26,889 nt of DNA from a virus: IMG/VR virus record IMGVR_UViG_3300023176_000798, positions 1 through 26,889 of that record; one strand, given 5' to 3'. Shown here piece by piece: positions 1,489-6,497 of this stretch. The notes beneath the pieces were generated by a model. The model had not been told where the DNA came from and made no database searches. It worked only from the letters and a program-made list of their open reading frames with translations. Position numbers and translations under genes: made by a program. Every line of letters starts with the position of its first letter. Positions within the stretch are counted from its first letter, which is position 1.

Positions 1489-1854
1489 CTAATTATTCAT
1501 GTATATACTTTTTACAGTACCATCAGTCCAATCAGACACTAATGTCCGTATCCAAACGTAATTTCCTGTAAAATTGTATATAAACCCGCCAGAGGAATTT
1601 GAATCACTTGTACTTGTGCTTGTATGTGAAATACCGTTTAATGTAAACCAATCAGAATCTACAGGATCTACCGCAAGTGTTGCTTGAATATCAACTGTGC
1701 CTATAAATCCATTTAGATTAATTTGCACAGTATGTAACCCGTCTACTCTGCTGTAATAGCCGTCCCCTTTAAATTTTTCTCCTGTTATTGTTTCTACAGT
1801 AGAATCACCGGGATGCGTCTGAGTTGCTAATAATGTTTGGCTGTTTCTTGACAT
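1489..1854 (-). CDS. Small beta-rich virion-type protein, 121 aa
   Basis: The protein begins MSRNSQTLLATQTHPGDSTV at the ATG at 1854; the frame can be opened earlier only from a TTG. It is rich in Ser, Thr and Gly and looks all-beta. The pattern GFIGTVDIQATLAVDP...DWFTLNG, followed by NFTGNYVWIRTLVSDWTDGTV, is of a kind I associate with small structural or decoration proteins of marine phages. There is no signal peptide or membrane segment. It follows the unknown 224-residue gene by four bases. A GATAAATA box overlaps that gene's stop codon only six bases before the ATG, too close for an ordinary leader. Confidence 0.7.
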   Translation of the reverse strand: MSRNSQTLLATQTHPGDSTVETITGEKFKGDGYYSRVDGLHTVQINLNGFIGTVDIQATLAVDPVDSDWFTLNGISHTSTSTSDSNSSGGFIYNFTGNYVWIRTLVSDWTDGTVKSIYMNN

Positions 1855-1858
1855 ATAG

Positions 1859-2533
1859 TTATTTATCAAGATCTTGTTTACATATTAATTTGTCGATACG
1901 CCGTATGTTAACGCCCATTAATGTAATTAACTGCAAGATTTTTTTATCTCTCGCATAAAAATACATCCCTGTCCCGCCGAAATTTTTGCTGGCGTCTAGA
2001 AAAGTTTTGCCGGCCTTAACTTTATCCGGATTGTCTTTAATCCAATTAACAAACTCGTTATTTGTTTGTATACCTAGTGTTACTTTATATTTAAATTCTG
2101 GAGGAGTTGTAACAACTATTACATGATTTGAGTTTTGAAGTAACGGAATACACTCGTCACTTGGCCCGCTAAAAGAACATTCATTTCCTGGGTTAATTTC
2201 TAATTTCTCTCCAAGGTCTAACAGCCAGTTTTTGTCGTTAGAATAAAGAGAAATTTTCGGATGTTCTATTCTTAAAACATAATCAGAACGGGTTGATAAG
2301 TGACTATATACTGTTTTAGCATCGTTGAGAGACTGAACCTTAATAGGAACTTCTCTTAAAAAATTACGCATGAATAACGGCTGATCATTATCAGCCGCAT
2401 ATTGTAATTCATCTAATCTCTGTCGAGCATGATATAAGTTTTTATTCCTAAATATCGTTGCAAGTATATTTGTAAAAGTTAATCGATATAAAAATTTATC
2501 ATAGAATAACTTAGTAGACTCATGTGTTTCCAT
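1859..2533 (-). CDS. Hypothetical protein, 224 aa
   Basis: I do not recognise this protein. It is soluble, with a helical, basic N-terminal third (KLFYDKFLYRLTFTNILATIFRN, then a YHARQRLDEL helix) and a central part of alternating strands around EHPKISLYSNDKNW and HVIVVTTPPEFKYKV. The C-terminal part reads GTGMYFYARDKKILQLITLM. The middle resembles a small alpha/beta domain that positions or reads out a ligand, but no catalytic motif stands out. It starts three bases after the stop of the ClpA-like gene and so is probably co-transcribed with the unfoldase, which makes an adaptor or substrate role worth testing; that link rests on position only. Confidence 0.7.
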   Translation of the reverse strand: METHESTKLFYDKFLYRLTFTNILATIFRNKNLYHARQRLDELQYAADNDQPLFMRNFLREVPIKVQSLNDAKTVYSHLSTRSDYVLRIEHPKISLYSNDKNWLLDLGEKLEINPGNECSFSGPSDECIPLLQNSNHVIVVTTPPEFKYKVTLGIQTNNEFVNWIKDNPDKVKAGKTFLDASKNFGGTGMYFYARDKKILQLITLMGVNIRRIDKLICKQDLDK

Positions 2534-2536
2534 AAA

Positions 2537-4774
2537 TTAATCAATTGGTACCTCTTCTTTCACAGTCTCTAACACTATCTCTTTATTTAACACATTTACG
2601 TTCACCTTGCCGCCGTCTTTTAGGCTACCAAACAGTAATTCTTTGGATAGCGGTCTTTTGATTTCTCTGTCGATGACTCTCTGCAAAGGTCTTGCACCCA
2701 TTCTTTTGTCAAAGCCTTTGTCTACTAGATAATCAAGAGCCTCGTTTGTGATGGTGATTTCTACACCTTTGCTAGTTACCATTGTTTTTAGTTCTACTAA
2801 GAACTTACCAACAATCTTAAGCATAATTTCTTTGCTTAGTTTACCAAAGGTAATTACGCCATCTAATCTATTACGAAATTCTGGAGCAAAATATTTTTTA
2901 AGTTCGGCATCCTCATAATCTTTTTCAAGTTCATCATTAAATCCGATAGCATTTTGCTCTGCTTCCTTAGCACCTAAGTTAGTTGTGAGAATTAGTACAC
3001 AGTTGCGAGCGTCTGCTGTCTTACCATTTGAACCTGTGATAAAACCATTGTCCATTATTTGTAGCAAAATTGTAGAAACATCTGGATGGGCTTTTTCAAT
3101 CTCGTCAAGTAATAGTACGCAGTTAGGATTTTCTTGAATCTTTGTAATTAACAATCCTGCATTTTCTTCAAAACCGACATAACCTGGAGGAGAACCAATT
3201 AGTTTCGATACTGCGTGTTTTTCTTGATATTCTGACATATCAAAGCGTACAAGTTCTACACCTAGTTGTTTACTTAATTGCTTTGCAGTTTCTGTTTTAC
3301 CTACACCGGTTGGACCCATAAAAACAAACGAACCAATTGGCTTATCGTCTGGTTTTAATCCTGCTTGTGCAACAAGAATTTTATCTACAATATCTTCAAT
3401 AGCCTTATCCTGTCCGTAAACTGTCTTTTTAAGATTTGTTTCTAAGTTAGCAAGATTTTCTGTTTCTCTTTCTGCAACCTGCTCTGAAGGCAATTTAAGT
3501 ATTTTAGATAACTCAAATTGTATTTCTTCCTCTCCTACAACTTTATTATCTGTAGGATCTTTTAGATTAAATCTTGAACAAGCAACGTCGATAAGATCGA
3601 TTGCTTTATCTGGAAGTTTTTTATCTGACTGATATTTAACACTTAACTTAATTGCAGCCGCAATTGCTTCGTCAGTAATAGTAGTTGCATGATAACTTTC
3701 GTAATACTTTTTAATACCGTTTAAGATATCTTTTGAAACATCTGGACTTGGCTCGTCTACAGTTACACGTTGGAATCGACGCATAAGAGCACGATCCTTT
3801 TCAAAGTATTTGCGATATTCTTCCCAAGTAGTGCTTGCAACTACTTTTAGGTTCCCCTTTGTTAGTGCAGGTTTTAGCATATTAGCCATATCATTAGCAC
3901 TGTTCTGTCCGCCAGCACCGGCTCCGCTCATCATGTGTGCTTCATCAACAAACATAATAGTTTTACCTTTTTTCTGGAGTCCACTAATTACTAGTTTAAA
4001 ACGTTCTTCAAAGTCTCCGCGATATTTTGAACCTGCAATCATACTGCCAATGTCTAGCATATAAACTTCATATTCTTTTAAGAATTCTGGTACATTTCCC
4101 TGTACAATATTAAACGCCATTCCTTCTGCAATAGCAGTTTTACCCACACCAGGATCACCTACAAGCAATACATTATTTTTGTTTCGACGGCCTAATGCAA
4201 GTGCGATAGAATCTAATTCTTCACTTCTACCAATTACAGGGTCTATTCTTTCTGCTTTTACTTCTTCGTTTAGATTAGTAGTAAATGCACGAAGTGCTTT
4301 TTGTGCGGCACCAGAAACTTCTTCGTCTTGAGCAACTTCGTCCAATTCGGTATTAATGTACTCGCCAAATTTTTCTTTTTCGATTCCAGCCTTTTCTAGA
4401 TAGTAAAGACTAATTGCTTTTTTCTCAGCCAGCATACTAACTAGTACATCGGCTAAACTAATTTCAGAACGTCCAGCAAAAAGAACCTGTGTAAACGCAC
4501 GATTAAGTACACGCTCTACTGCTTGAGTCTTTTTAGGCTTAAATTTGTTTGCTTCTATTTTTAATTCATCAGAATTATTTTTTAAGTGATGTTCTAAATT
4601 GCTTTTTATATAATCTGTGTCAGCGCCATATCCTTTAAGAAGATTGACAAAGTTATCTTCACACATCATTGCGAATAGTAGATGTTCTAGTGTCAAGTAT
4701 TCGTGTTTTAATTTTTTTGCATCTTGAAAAGATTTTTCAAAAACAAGTTGTAGTTCTTCGCTAGGCTCAACCAT
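2537..4774 (-). CDS. clpA: ClpA-like AAA+ protein unfoldase
   Basis: At 745 residues this has the size and layout of ClpA (about 758) rather than ClpB: an N-terminal Clp_N repeat domain (1-145), two AAA+ modules, and no long coiled-coil middle domain. Module 1 has Walker A GDPGVGKT (206-213), Walker B FVDEAH (275-280) and pore loop KYRG (250-253). Module 2 has Walker A GPTGVGKT (487-494), Walker B LLDEIE (555-560) and pore loop GYVG. The tripeptide IGF (610-612), just before YFAPEFRNRLD, matches the IGL/IGF loop by which ClpA and ClpX dock on ClpP. No clpP is in the window, so the likely partner is host ClpP. The start overlaps the end of peptide deformylase by 8 bases, and AGAGGAAA precedes the ATG. 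Confidence 0.93.
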   Translation of the reverse strand: MVEPSEELQLVFEKSFQDAKKLKHEYLTLEHLLFAMMCEDNFVNLLKGYGADTDYIKSNLEHHLKNNSDELKIEANKFKPKKTQAVERVLNRAFTQVLFAGRSEISLADVLVSMLAEKKAISLYYLEKAGIEKEKFGEYINTELDEVAQDEEVSGAAQKALRAFTTNLNEEVKAERIDPVIGRSEELDSIALALGRRNKNNVLLVGDPGVGKTAIAEGMAFNIVQGNVPEFLKEYEVYMLDIGSMIAGSKYRGDFEERFKLVISGLQKKGKTIMFVDEAHMMSGAGAGGQNSANDMANMLKPALTKGNLKVVASTTWEEYRKYFEKDRALMRRFQRVTVDEPSPDVSKDILNGIKKYYESYHATTITDEAIAAAIKLSVKYQSDKKLPDKAIDLIDVACSRFNLKDPTDNKVVGEEEIQFELSKILKLPSEQVAERETENLANLETNLKKTVYGQDKAIEDIVDKILVAQAGLKPDDKPIGSFVFMGPTGVGKTETAKQLSKQLGVELVRFDMSEYQEKHAVSKLIGSPPGYVGFEENAGLLITKIQENPNCVLLLDEIEKAHPDVSTILLQIMDNGFITGSNGKTADARNCVLILTTNLGAKEAEQNAIGFNDELEKDYEDAELKKYFAPEFRNRLDGVITFGKLSKEIMLKIVGKFLVELKTMVTSKGVEITITNEALDYLVDKGFDKRMGARPLQRVIDREIKRPLSKELLFGSLKDGGKVNVNVLNKEIVLETVKEEVPID

Positions 4775-5273
4775 TCTGTAATTTCCTCTGTAGTTTTAGT
4801 CTTTTTTTCCTGGCCATATCAAGTTTTAGTTTGCTTACTCTATTTGTAAACTCTATTCCTTGCAAATGATCGTACTCATGTAAAAAACATCTAGCATCTA
4901 GATCATATAGTTCTATTGTACACTCTTTAGCATTAATGTCAAGGTATTTGGCTATTATACCCCTTGGACGTTTTACCGATAGATATAAATCAGGGTGACT
5001 TAAACACCCTTCGGGCATTTCTTCATTATTAATTGTTACACTTTCAATGTGCGGATTTATTATTACTAGTGGAGATTTATCTTCTAATAAATGAGGCTTC
5101 ATTACAAAAATCCTAGCATCTAACGCTACTTGATTTGCACTTAGTCCTATGCCGCCTTTCTGTTTCATTAAATCTATCATATTTTCACTAATTTCTTTAG
5201 CATCTAGATTTACAAAATCAAAATCTTTAACTACAGTTTGTAACCATTTGTTTGGCGATTTAACTAATTGCAT
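4767..5273 (-). CDS. def: Peptide deformylase
   Basis: This 168-residue enzyme removes the formyl group from the N-terminal methionine of new proteins. All three family motifs are intact: GIGLSANQ (41-48), EGCLS (88-92, metal-binding Cys90) and HEYDH (132-136, two metal-binding His and the catalytic Glu). It is close to bacterial enzymes in length and carries a basic tail (ARKKRLKLQRKLQ). Peptide deformylases are known from marine cyanophages, where they are usually shorter. The start lies 14 bases inside the end of dnaJ and the stop overlaps clpA, so the three genes form a tightly coupled block for protein maturation and turnover. Confidence 0.95.
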   Translation of the reverse strand: MQLVKSPNKWLQTVVKDFDFVNLDAKEISENMIDLMKQKGGIGLSANQVALDARIFVMKPHLLEDKSPLVIINPHIESVTINNEEMPEGCLSHPDLYLSVKRPRGIIAKYLDINAKECTIELYDLDARCFLHEYDHLQGIEFTNRVSKLKLDMARKKRLKLQRKLQNG

Positions 5274-6069
5274 CTTTTATCTCTCTTAATTTTGTTCTTA
5301 TTTCTTCATTATTAATTTTAGGAATAGTTGTCTCTACTTGTATAAAAACATTTCCGCGGCGTCTATGATTTACATTAGGCATACCATATCCTTTAATACT
5401 AAATTTACTTCCTGGTGCTGTTCCAGGTGGTACTGTTACTTTTAGATCTTTGTTATCTAATGTTTTTATTATTATAGCAGTTCCTAGTAATAAGTCAAAT
5501 ACATCTACATATTTTACTACATAAAGATGATCGCCGTCTCTAATCCATTCCTTGTGATTATCTACTTGTACTACAACATGCAAATCTCCTCTAGGGAAAC
5601 TTGGATGGGTATTATCTCCAAGGCCACTATACCTTATAGTATCTCCACTTTTCGCTCCTGGCGGAACGTCAACACTTACACTTTCTTGACTACCGTTTGA
5701 TAAACGATAACTTATTACAAGTCCTTTACCAAAAAAACTATCTTCTAGTGTTATTCGGGCACCTACTCGTATGTCTTGATTTCTTTGTCTAGATCGTCGA
5801 GCACCTTGACCAAACACACTGCCCATAATATCTTGAAAGTTAGAAAAATCATTAAAACTATTAGCATTAAAATTGAATTCTTGAGGATTATCGTATTGAC
5901 TTTTTTTACTAGGATCGCTAAGAATGCTATACGCCTCCTGCAATTTTTTAAATTCAGCCTCACTTCCTCCTTTGTCAGGATGATGCTTGCTTGCAAGTTT
6001 TTTATATGATTTTTTTATTTCTTCTGGTGTAGCATTTCTTGATACACCTAAGATAGAATAATAGTCCAT
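5260..6069 (-). CDS. dnaJ: DnaJ/CbpA-type co-chaperone
   Basis: The 269-residue protein starts with a J domain (residues 1-65) carrying the HPD signature at 30-32, which stimulates the ATPase of Hsp70 (DnaK). A short Phe/Asn/Gly-rich linker follows (about 62-98), then two beta-rich substrate-binding domains like the DnaJ C-terminal region, with VDVPPGAKSGDTIRYSGLGD and VTVPPGTAPGSKFSIKGYGM. There is no CxxCxGxG zinc finger, so it is a type II, CbpA-like J protein. No DnaK is in the window, so it probably acts with host DnaK. The start is secure because MDYYSILGVS is the canonical beginning of the J domain, yet no ribosome-binding site precedes it. The ATG instead lies inside a perfect inverted repeat. 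Confidence 0.95.
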   Translation of the reverse strand: MDYYSILGVSRNATPEEIKKSYKKLASKHHPDKGGSEAEFKKLQEAYSILSDPSKKSQYDNPQEFNFNANSFNDFSNFQDIMGSVFGQGARRSRQRNQDIRVGARITLEDSFFGKGLVISYRLSNGSQESVSVDVPPGAKSGDTIRYSGLGDNTHPSFPRGDLHVVVQVDNHKEWIRDGDHLYVVKYVDVFDLLLGTAIIIKTLDNKDLKVTVPPGTAPGSKFSIKGYGMPNVNHRRRGNVFIQVETTIPKINNEEIRTKLREIKDAIS

Positions 6070-6097
6070 GTAATTACTTATCGCATGGACTATTATT
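6057..6097 (-). promoter_or_regulatory. 14-bp perfect inverted repeat enclosing the dnaJ start codon
   Basis: The arms 6057-6070 and 6084-6097 are exact reverse complements (AATAATAGTCCATG and CATGGACTATTATT), separated by 13 bases. In the mRNA the downstream arm holds the AUG and codons 2-4 of dnaJ, so the start codon would be paired. The upstream arm contains its own AUG followed by CGA UAA, a two-codon open frame. No U-run follows, so it is not a standard terminator. The stem has 4 G-C and 10 A-U pairs. Confidence 0.75.
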
Positions 6098-6115
6098 TAA
6101 GGGTTGGTAGTGATA

Positions 6116-6445
6116 TTACTTTTTATTGGCTAATGCTTGGCCACCAAAGAATGCAGCAACAATAGCAGCAACAGAAACAAAGTATGTAGCAGCCATATCG
6201 CCTAGTATTTTTGCAGCACCGTCAAGATTAACAAAGTCTGCAAGTACAACAGCAAAAGGATACAACAACATGCCAAATAGAGCAAACCAGGCCATGCTAC
6301 GTTGTGCATCACGCATAGCGTCTGCATCTTCTAGTTCCTTACGCTTGAACTCCATATACATCTTGTGCTCTTCATCAGACACCTTACCGTCACCGTTAGT
6401 ATCTGCTGGATGGTATGTTTCTGGTTTTTTATCTTCGTCAGACAT
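6116..6445 (-). CDS. EF-hand membrane protein with two transmembrane segments
   Basis: I chose the ATG at 6445 because GAGGGAG lies just upstream; the protein is then 109 residues. A full EF-hand calcium loop, DTNGDGKVSDEE, sits at residues 15-26 with acidic or Asn ligands at positions 1, 3, 5 and 12 and Gly at 6. A charged helix (about 27-50) follows, then two hydrophobic segments (about 52-72 and 84-104) and a basic end (ALANKK). There is no signal peptide. Two close membrane spans and a charged tail suit a class II holin, and the gene lies downstream of the lysozyme-spanin genes, but holins cannot be called from sequence alone. A late-type promoter box lies 45 bases upstream. Confidence 0.8.
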   Translation of the reverse strand: MSDEDKKPETYHPADTNGDGKVSDEEHKMYMEFKRKELEDADAMRDAQRSMAWFALFGMLLYPFAVVLADFVNLDGAAKILGDMAATYFVSVAAIVAAFFGGQALANKK

Positions 6446-6489: not shown

Positions 6490-6497
6490 TATTTATT
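6490..6497 (-). promoter_or_regulatory. Late-type promoter box (AATAAATA)
   Basis: Minus-strand AATAAATAC, one mismatch from the T4 late consensus TATAAATA, lies 45 bases before the EF-hand gene's ATG. It overlaps the stop of the radical SAM gene, where tandem stops TAATAA form part of the box. Confidence 0.45.

Follow-up and report, generated by a model that had tools for sequence, protein, structure and literature searches.

How can a gene be translated when its start codon lies in the stem of a hairpin and no ribosome-binding site precedes it? This question is raised by a dnaJ-like gene in the 26,889-nucleotide stretch of viral DNA analysed here (the window), whose product carries a J domain (Pfam E value 2e-23) and a DnaJ_C domain (2.4e-35). 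The gene stands in a series of minus-strand genes, as follows.

2537..4774, minus strand: clpA-like gene (ClpA-like ATPase), further downstream in the direction of dnaJ (domain search)
4767..5273, minus strand: peptide deformylase gene, next downstream of dnaJ and in the same direction (domain search)
5260..6069, minus strand: dnaJ-like gene with J domain and DnaJ_C, 269 aa (Pfam)
6104..6113, minus strand: TCACTACCAA, the window's form of a conserved TCAnTACTAA element 3' of the EF-hand stop codon (relatives, at -43 to -34 from the dnaJ ATG)
6116..6445, minus strand: gene for an EF-hand-like small membrane protein, upstream of dnaJ, whose transcript would carry the hairpin (ORF list, protein search)
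6490..6497, minus strand: probable late promoter of the EF-hand gene, AATAAATA, 44 nt before its ATG (box search)

The hairpin is encoded by two arms, 6057-6070 (AATAATAGTCCATG) and 6084-6097 (CATGGACTATTATT), which are 100% complementary and separated by 13 nt. As the initial annotation had described, the repeat is exact and spans the dnaJ start, and the window has no other perfect inverted repeat of at least 14 nt with a loop of 3-30 nt. In 300 dinucleotide shuffles of the window such repeats occurred at a mean of 0.010 (about 1% of shuffles); these shuffles, together with the pairing observed among relatives, rule out a chance repeat as the origin of the hairpin. In RNA read through from upstream, its parts are the following.

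6084..6097, minus strand: hairpin 5' arm in the dnaJ read-through mRNA, AAUAAUAGUCCAUG (conserved and covarying in 65 relatives)
6071..6083, minus strand: hairpin loop, CGAUAAGUAAUUA (sequence and alignment of relatives)
6057..6070, minus strand: hairpin 3' arm, with the dnaJ AUG (6069-6067) and codons 2-4 (sequence, relatives)

Relatives were gathered by an EF-hand protein search, a DnaJ alignment search and a DNA pattern, yielding 142 distinct dnaJ junctions, and a hairpin was called when at least 10 of 15 positions paired in exactly the register of the window. The hairpin is present in 65 of the 74 distinct junctions that have an EF-hand gene upstream of dnaJ (26 of 34 in the subset retrieved without the DNA pattern) and is absent from dnaJ junctions with other genes upstream. 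Nine junctions depart from this pattern: L286 keeps the helix but has a shorter loop, L051, L056 and L069 form another strong helix around the AUG, L062 forms a weaker one, and in the remaining four no helix at the AUG is clear. Thus the same gene order lacking upstream complementarity, the observation that would speak against sequestration of the start codon, is found in at most 4 of 74 junctions, five of the nine exceptions having a shifted or alternative helix. The non-hairpin dnaJ group as a whole shows no excess of alternative helices over swapped arms, despite the clear cases of L051, L056, L069 and L095 and the shifted helix of L286. L095 itself has a 13-bp perfect helix (ACGCCCAGCGTAC/GTACGCTGGGCGT) of other sequence and register that encloses the dnaJ AUG and the promoter-like box discussed below, apparently an independent solution.

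The element occurs once per genome: no convincing further copy was found in the hairpin-bearing contigs beyond weak, chance-level matches, and the second strong genome match is the same site read on the opposite strand. The AUG-CGA-UAA mini-frame in the upstream arm, which had been singled out as a decoy, is kept in only 28 of 65 homologues and therefore looks incidental.

The pairing itself bears the marks of selection. Partner shuffling among sequences never attains the observed pairing (0 of 5000 trials, and 0 of 500 in a second test), and controls in slid registers are 23-52% paired, compared with 95% in the true register. Within the stem core, 38 of 195 positions of the 5' arm opposite G or U vary in a way that keeps the pair by wobble, whereas opposite A or C only 1 of 260 varies (Fisher p 2.6e-14). 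Compensatory changes at the junction recur on independent branches of the DnaJ tree: of 6 independent pairs with a T-to-C change at codon 3 (TAT/TAC), 5 show the mirroring A-to-G change in the 5' arm and none is opposed, TAT/TAC changes at codon 4 are mirrored in the upstream arm in about 6 of 12 versus 0.5 opposed, and changes of the first base of codon 3 (TAT/CAC) are mirrored in 2 of 2; each of these counts is too small for significance alone, and the direction agrees in all. Codon 2 is GAC in 65 of 65 hairpin loci, versus 35 GAC and 21 GAT elsewhere. The predicted probability that the AUG is paired averages 0.999 over the 65 read-through RNAs, and is 1.00 with a locus's own upstream arm versus 0.40 when the arm of another locus is swapped in. 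Substitutions confined to those that wobble tolerates, and covariation, argue that RNA pairing is under selection and are not expected of a DNA-binding site. Judged from these alignments, the hairpin is almost certainly a selected RNA structure, and the sequestration of the start codon proposed in the initial annotation is well supported.

A way for dnaJ to be expressed at all is offered by the loop. In hairpin loci its sequence GATAAGTA is almost invariant and lies exactly at -13 to -6, counting the A of the AUG as +1; the T4 late box TATAAATA occupies the same -13 to -6 interval relative to the transcription start (PMC1524935). Two further features of the window follow.

6075..6082, minus strand: late-promoter-like -10 box GATAAGTA, exactly -13 to -6 from the A of the dnaJ ATG (T4 late box position, PMC1524935)
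6069, minus strand: predicted transcription start at the A of the dnaJ AUG, giving a leaderless mRNA (box position and bimodal box-to-ATG distances)

The earlier remark that no ribosome-binding site is visible was borne out, there being no Shine-Dalgarno-like tetramer at -20 to -4 of dnaJ in any of the 65 homologous junctions, but it overlooked this box. The box is also present without the hairpin: where dnaJ is preceded by other genes and has no hairpin, TAAGTA stands at the same -11 to -6 spot, and hairpin-less dnaJ junctions have AATAAGTA or GATAAGTA in the same position. All 109 late-type dnaJ starts are ATG.

The box also belongs to a wider family. In a survey of 196 non-redundant loci, 357 genes had a NATAAATA box (pattern [ACGT]ATAAATA) on their own strand in the 100 nt before them, and the antisense control gave 19. 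The counts of GATAAGTA in this survey are inflated because loci were retrieved by that very string, and the unbiased figures are those of the junction alignment. The distance from box to ATG is bimodal, being 4-5 nt in 96 cases and 17-35 nt in 188, with only 12 at 6-16 nt; the longer class has room for a leader with a Shine-Dalgarno sequence and the shorter class has none. The dnaJ -10 box ends about 5 nt before the ATG, as for a leaderless gene. A late sigma factor (PHROG 12791, E value 1.6e-77) is encoded in the hairpin-bearing 147-kb contig G007, one of six large contigs searched, and was not found in the five other hairpin-bearing contigs, which are possibly incomplete. From the position and distribution of the box, we consider it quite probable that the hairpin loop contains a late promoter. 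The usual form, GATAAATA, differs from GATAAGTA by one base: dnaJ uses TAAGTA and most other late genes TAAATA, with the G nearly fixed (TAAATA is seen in a few dnaJ loci); one reason could be that it weakens the promoter.

What comparative sequence shows directly is a conserved, covarying hairpin and a box at fixed spacing, and from these we infer promoter activity, start site, leaderless translation, read-through repression and purpose in the following way. In any transcript from the EF-hand gene or further upstream, the RNA hairpin would cover the dnaJ AUG. The same segment, as DNA, would present a T4-type late promoter in the loop, from which the late RNA polymerase (host core with a gp55-like sigma factor) would begin at the A of the AUG. 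The product would be a leaderless dnaJ mRNA, which, lacking the untranscribed 5' arm, could not form the hairpin. With the read-through form locked, dnaJ would be translated only from its own late transcript and would be insulated both from read-through and from ribosomes finishing the EF-hand gene. Repression of read-through translation by the hairpin, which draws on predicted folding, is quite likely; transcription start at the AUG with leaderless translation is likely; and the model taken as a whole is probable. In the predicted leaderless RNA the AUG is partly paired in weak structures (mean probability 0.66 at 20 °C). A ribosome ending the EF-hand gene would probably not open the stem, since its stopping point is 43-46 nt short of the AUG and about 15-18 nt short of the stem.

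A late-type box lies within 800 nt upstream in 37 of the 55 hairpin loci with enough upstream sequence (a few are coding or junction matches). Since the upstream gene set of most loci thus has its own late-type box, T4-style early/late timing is less secure, and as the purpose of the hairpin it is somewhat doubtful. Given the late-type box upstream in many loci, the gain may lie in insulating dnaJ from a strong late neighbour no less than in delaying it.

The hairpin might instead be a temperature- or protein-responsive switch on a single dnaJ message, either a thermometer or an operator for a phage protein or DnaJ, with GATAAGTA as its recognition loop. The AUG is covered by the stem, the loop is nearly invariant and the gene encodes a heat-shock-type chaperone, all as such a switch would have it. 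However, the stem, with a predicted energy of -25 kcal/mol at 20 °C, would remain closed far above any sea temperature: the probability of a paired AUG is predicted as 1.00 from 0 to 30 °C and still as 0.95 at 75 °C. On this predicted stability we reject the RNA thermometer that the initial annotation had entertained; of the heat-shock link it drew, the identity of the gene stands and nothing beyond that. What the dnaJ hairpin has in common with ROSE and fourU thermometers is that the start region of a heat-shock-type gene is folded into a structure, but it has no Shine-Dalgarno pairing, no marginal stability and no match to a known family (no Rfam family was matched in the window at gathering scores). 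Nor does the conservation of the loop need a ligand, because TAAGTA occurs at the same spacing before hairpin-less dnaJ and ATAAATA at that spacing before unrelated genes. A responsive switch is therefore improbable.

The loop could also be an RNA processing site, in which an endonuclease cuts polycistronic RNA near the AUG, with GATAAGTA as the cleavage signal. Such a cut would likewise yield a leaderless dnaJ mRNA, and both the invariant loop and the spacing from the EF-hand stop to the dnaJ ATG (43 nt in 49 of the 65 hairpin loci) are in keeping with it. Against this, the box stays in place where the hairpin is missing, and by position and strand it matches the NATAAATA family before many other genes; we regard processing as quite unlikely. 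A DNA-level operator, in which a dimeric repressor bound to the inverted repeat overlaps the late promoter, would have the usual layout of a dyad around a promoter box and a precedent in I-TevI, which binds an operator over its own late promoter (PMC2988022), but the confinement of changes to positions where G-U pairing survives and the covarying pairs described above reflect a requirement of RNA rather than of a DNA site, making this reading very improbable. Hardly more credible than the operator is that the hairpin is real but mainly a 3'-end or stability element of the EF-hand message, with the cover over the dnaJ start a side effect: it lies 15-18 nt after the EF-hand stop, beside the conserved TCAnTACTAA element, but no U-tract follows it, EF-hand genes without a downstream dnaJ lack it and often have an ordinary terminator instead, and its 3' arm lies inside the dnaJ coding region, a costly site for a stability element.

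The TCAnTACTAA element directly after the EF-hand stop is present only when dnaJ follows. A kissing contact between the loop and the TACT of this element, judged by eye, was unsupported by two loci with an altered loop. Where no dnaJ comes next, the terminator U-tract of the EF-hand gene merges into the following late-type box in eight loci (L010, L011, L014, L016, L018, L025, L049 and L052), for example GGCGGGTTTTTTTATAAATA.

A late promoter in the loop of a start-codon hairpin is closest to an arrangement known from T4. For T4 e, soc, 49, I-TevI and segB, and mobE of phage Aeh1, a helix in RNA initiated upstream hides the initiation region, and RNA from the late promoter lacks the 5' strand (PMC3014915; PMC2988022). 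Like e, soc, 49 and I-TevI, dnaJ has a predicted helix over its translation start in the read-through RNA, and its candidate late promoter is downstream of the whole 5' arm, so that the transcript would lack the 5' strand. Unlike them, its box sits in the loop and the predicted transcript starts at the AUG itself, and in 65 of 65 junctions there is no Shine-Dalgarno sequence to hide or retain. The dnaJ hairpin is thus a variant of T4-type control, and not a plain member, because the retained Shine-Dalgarno sequence is missing. It differs further in that the gene is dnaJ, in its conservation across dozens of divergent uncultured phages, and in that the upstream unit often has its own late-type box, which makes an early-to-late timer as in T4 less secure. 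With leaderless phage mRNAs it shares a promoter box placed such that the message would begin with the A of the AUG; unlike in other such cases, a T4-type late box serves several gene families in one phage group, and dnaJ adds a hairpin predicted to silence the leadered form. The J-domain protein of phage RB43, cited in PMC12619734, offers the likeness of a T4-related phage with a J-domain gene, and that work concerns the protein. A literature search of incomplete coverage found no description of a start-codon hairpin enclosing a late promoter.

In T4, hairpin control is known from a few genes whose leaders carry a Shine-Dalgarno sequence. At the dnaJ junctions a related logic extends to dozens of divergent environmental phages, where covariation testifies to selection; the gene concerned encodes a host-facing chaperone, and the control is, as predicted, coupled to leaderless initiation. 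A broader generalization is slightly favoured: that one widespread group among uncultured marine T4-like phages starts several late genes leaderless, from a box 4-5 nt before the ATG, and that the dnaJ segment combines this promoter with a loop that locks the AUG in every leadered message, leaving leaderless translation as the sole route of expression. The presence of NATAAATA or GATAAGTA 4-5 nt before an ATG provides a sequence rule for finding leaderless late genes and correcting starts in marine phage genomes, and at the dnaJ junction nature offers a clean comparison of leaderless and leadered translation from one AUG.

A rule that leaderless late genes generally bear start hairpins was rejected, as two other leaderless families and the remainder have no excess of structure over swapped upstream arms. 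Nine dnaJ loci of the AATAAGTA/GATAAGTA group that lack the main hairpin (L112, L121, L128, L131, L132, L124, L139, L232 and L265) have GTAATAGT-AUGG-ACTATTAC, from which leadered RNA could form a stem of 8 bp that presents the AUG in a 4-nt loop. The dnaJ genes of other relatives (L134, L156, L158, L163 and L167) are preceded by TTGAC...TATAAT ending 4-6 nt before the ATG and are apparently leaderless from host-type (sigma70-like) promoters. One of the short box-to-ATG genes lies in the window itself.

1489..1867, minus strand: probable leaderless late virion gene (GATAAATA at 1867-1860, then 5 nt, ATG at 1854)

This gene (1489-1854) belongs to a virion-like family of about 77 loci in the short-distance class. 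The ORF caller takes an upstream TTG (1869) over the ATG at 1854, and since about 77 loci share the layout, the start of this family is probably mis-called in general.
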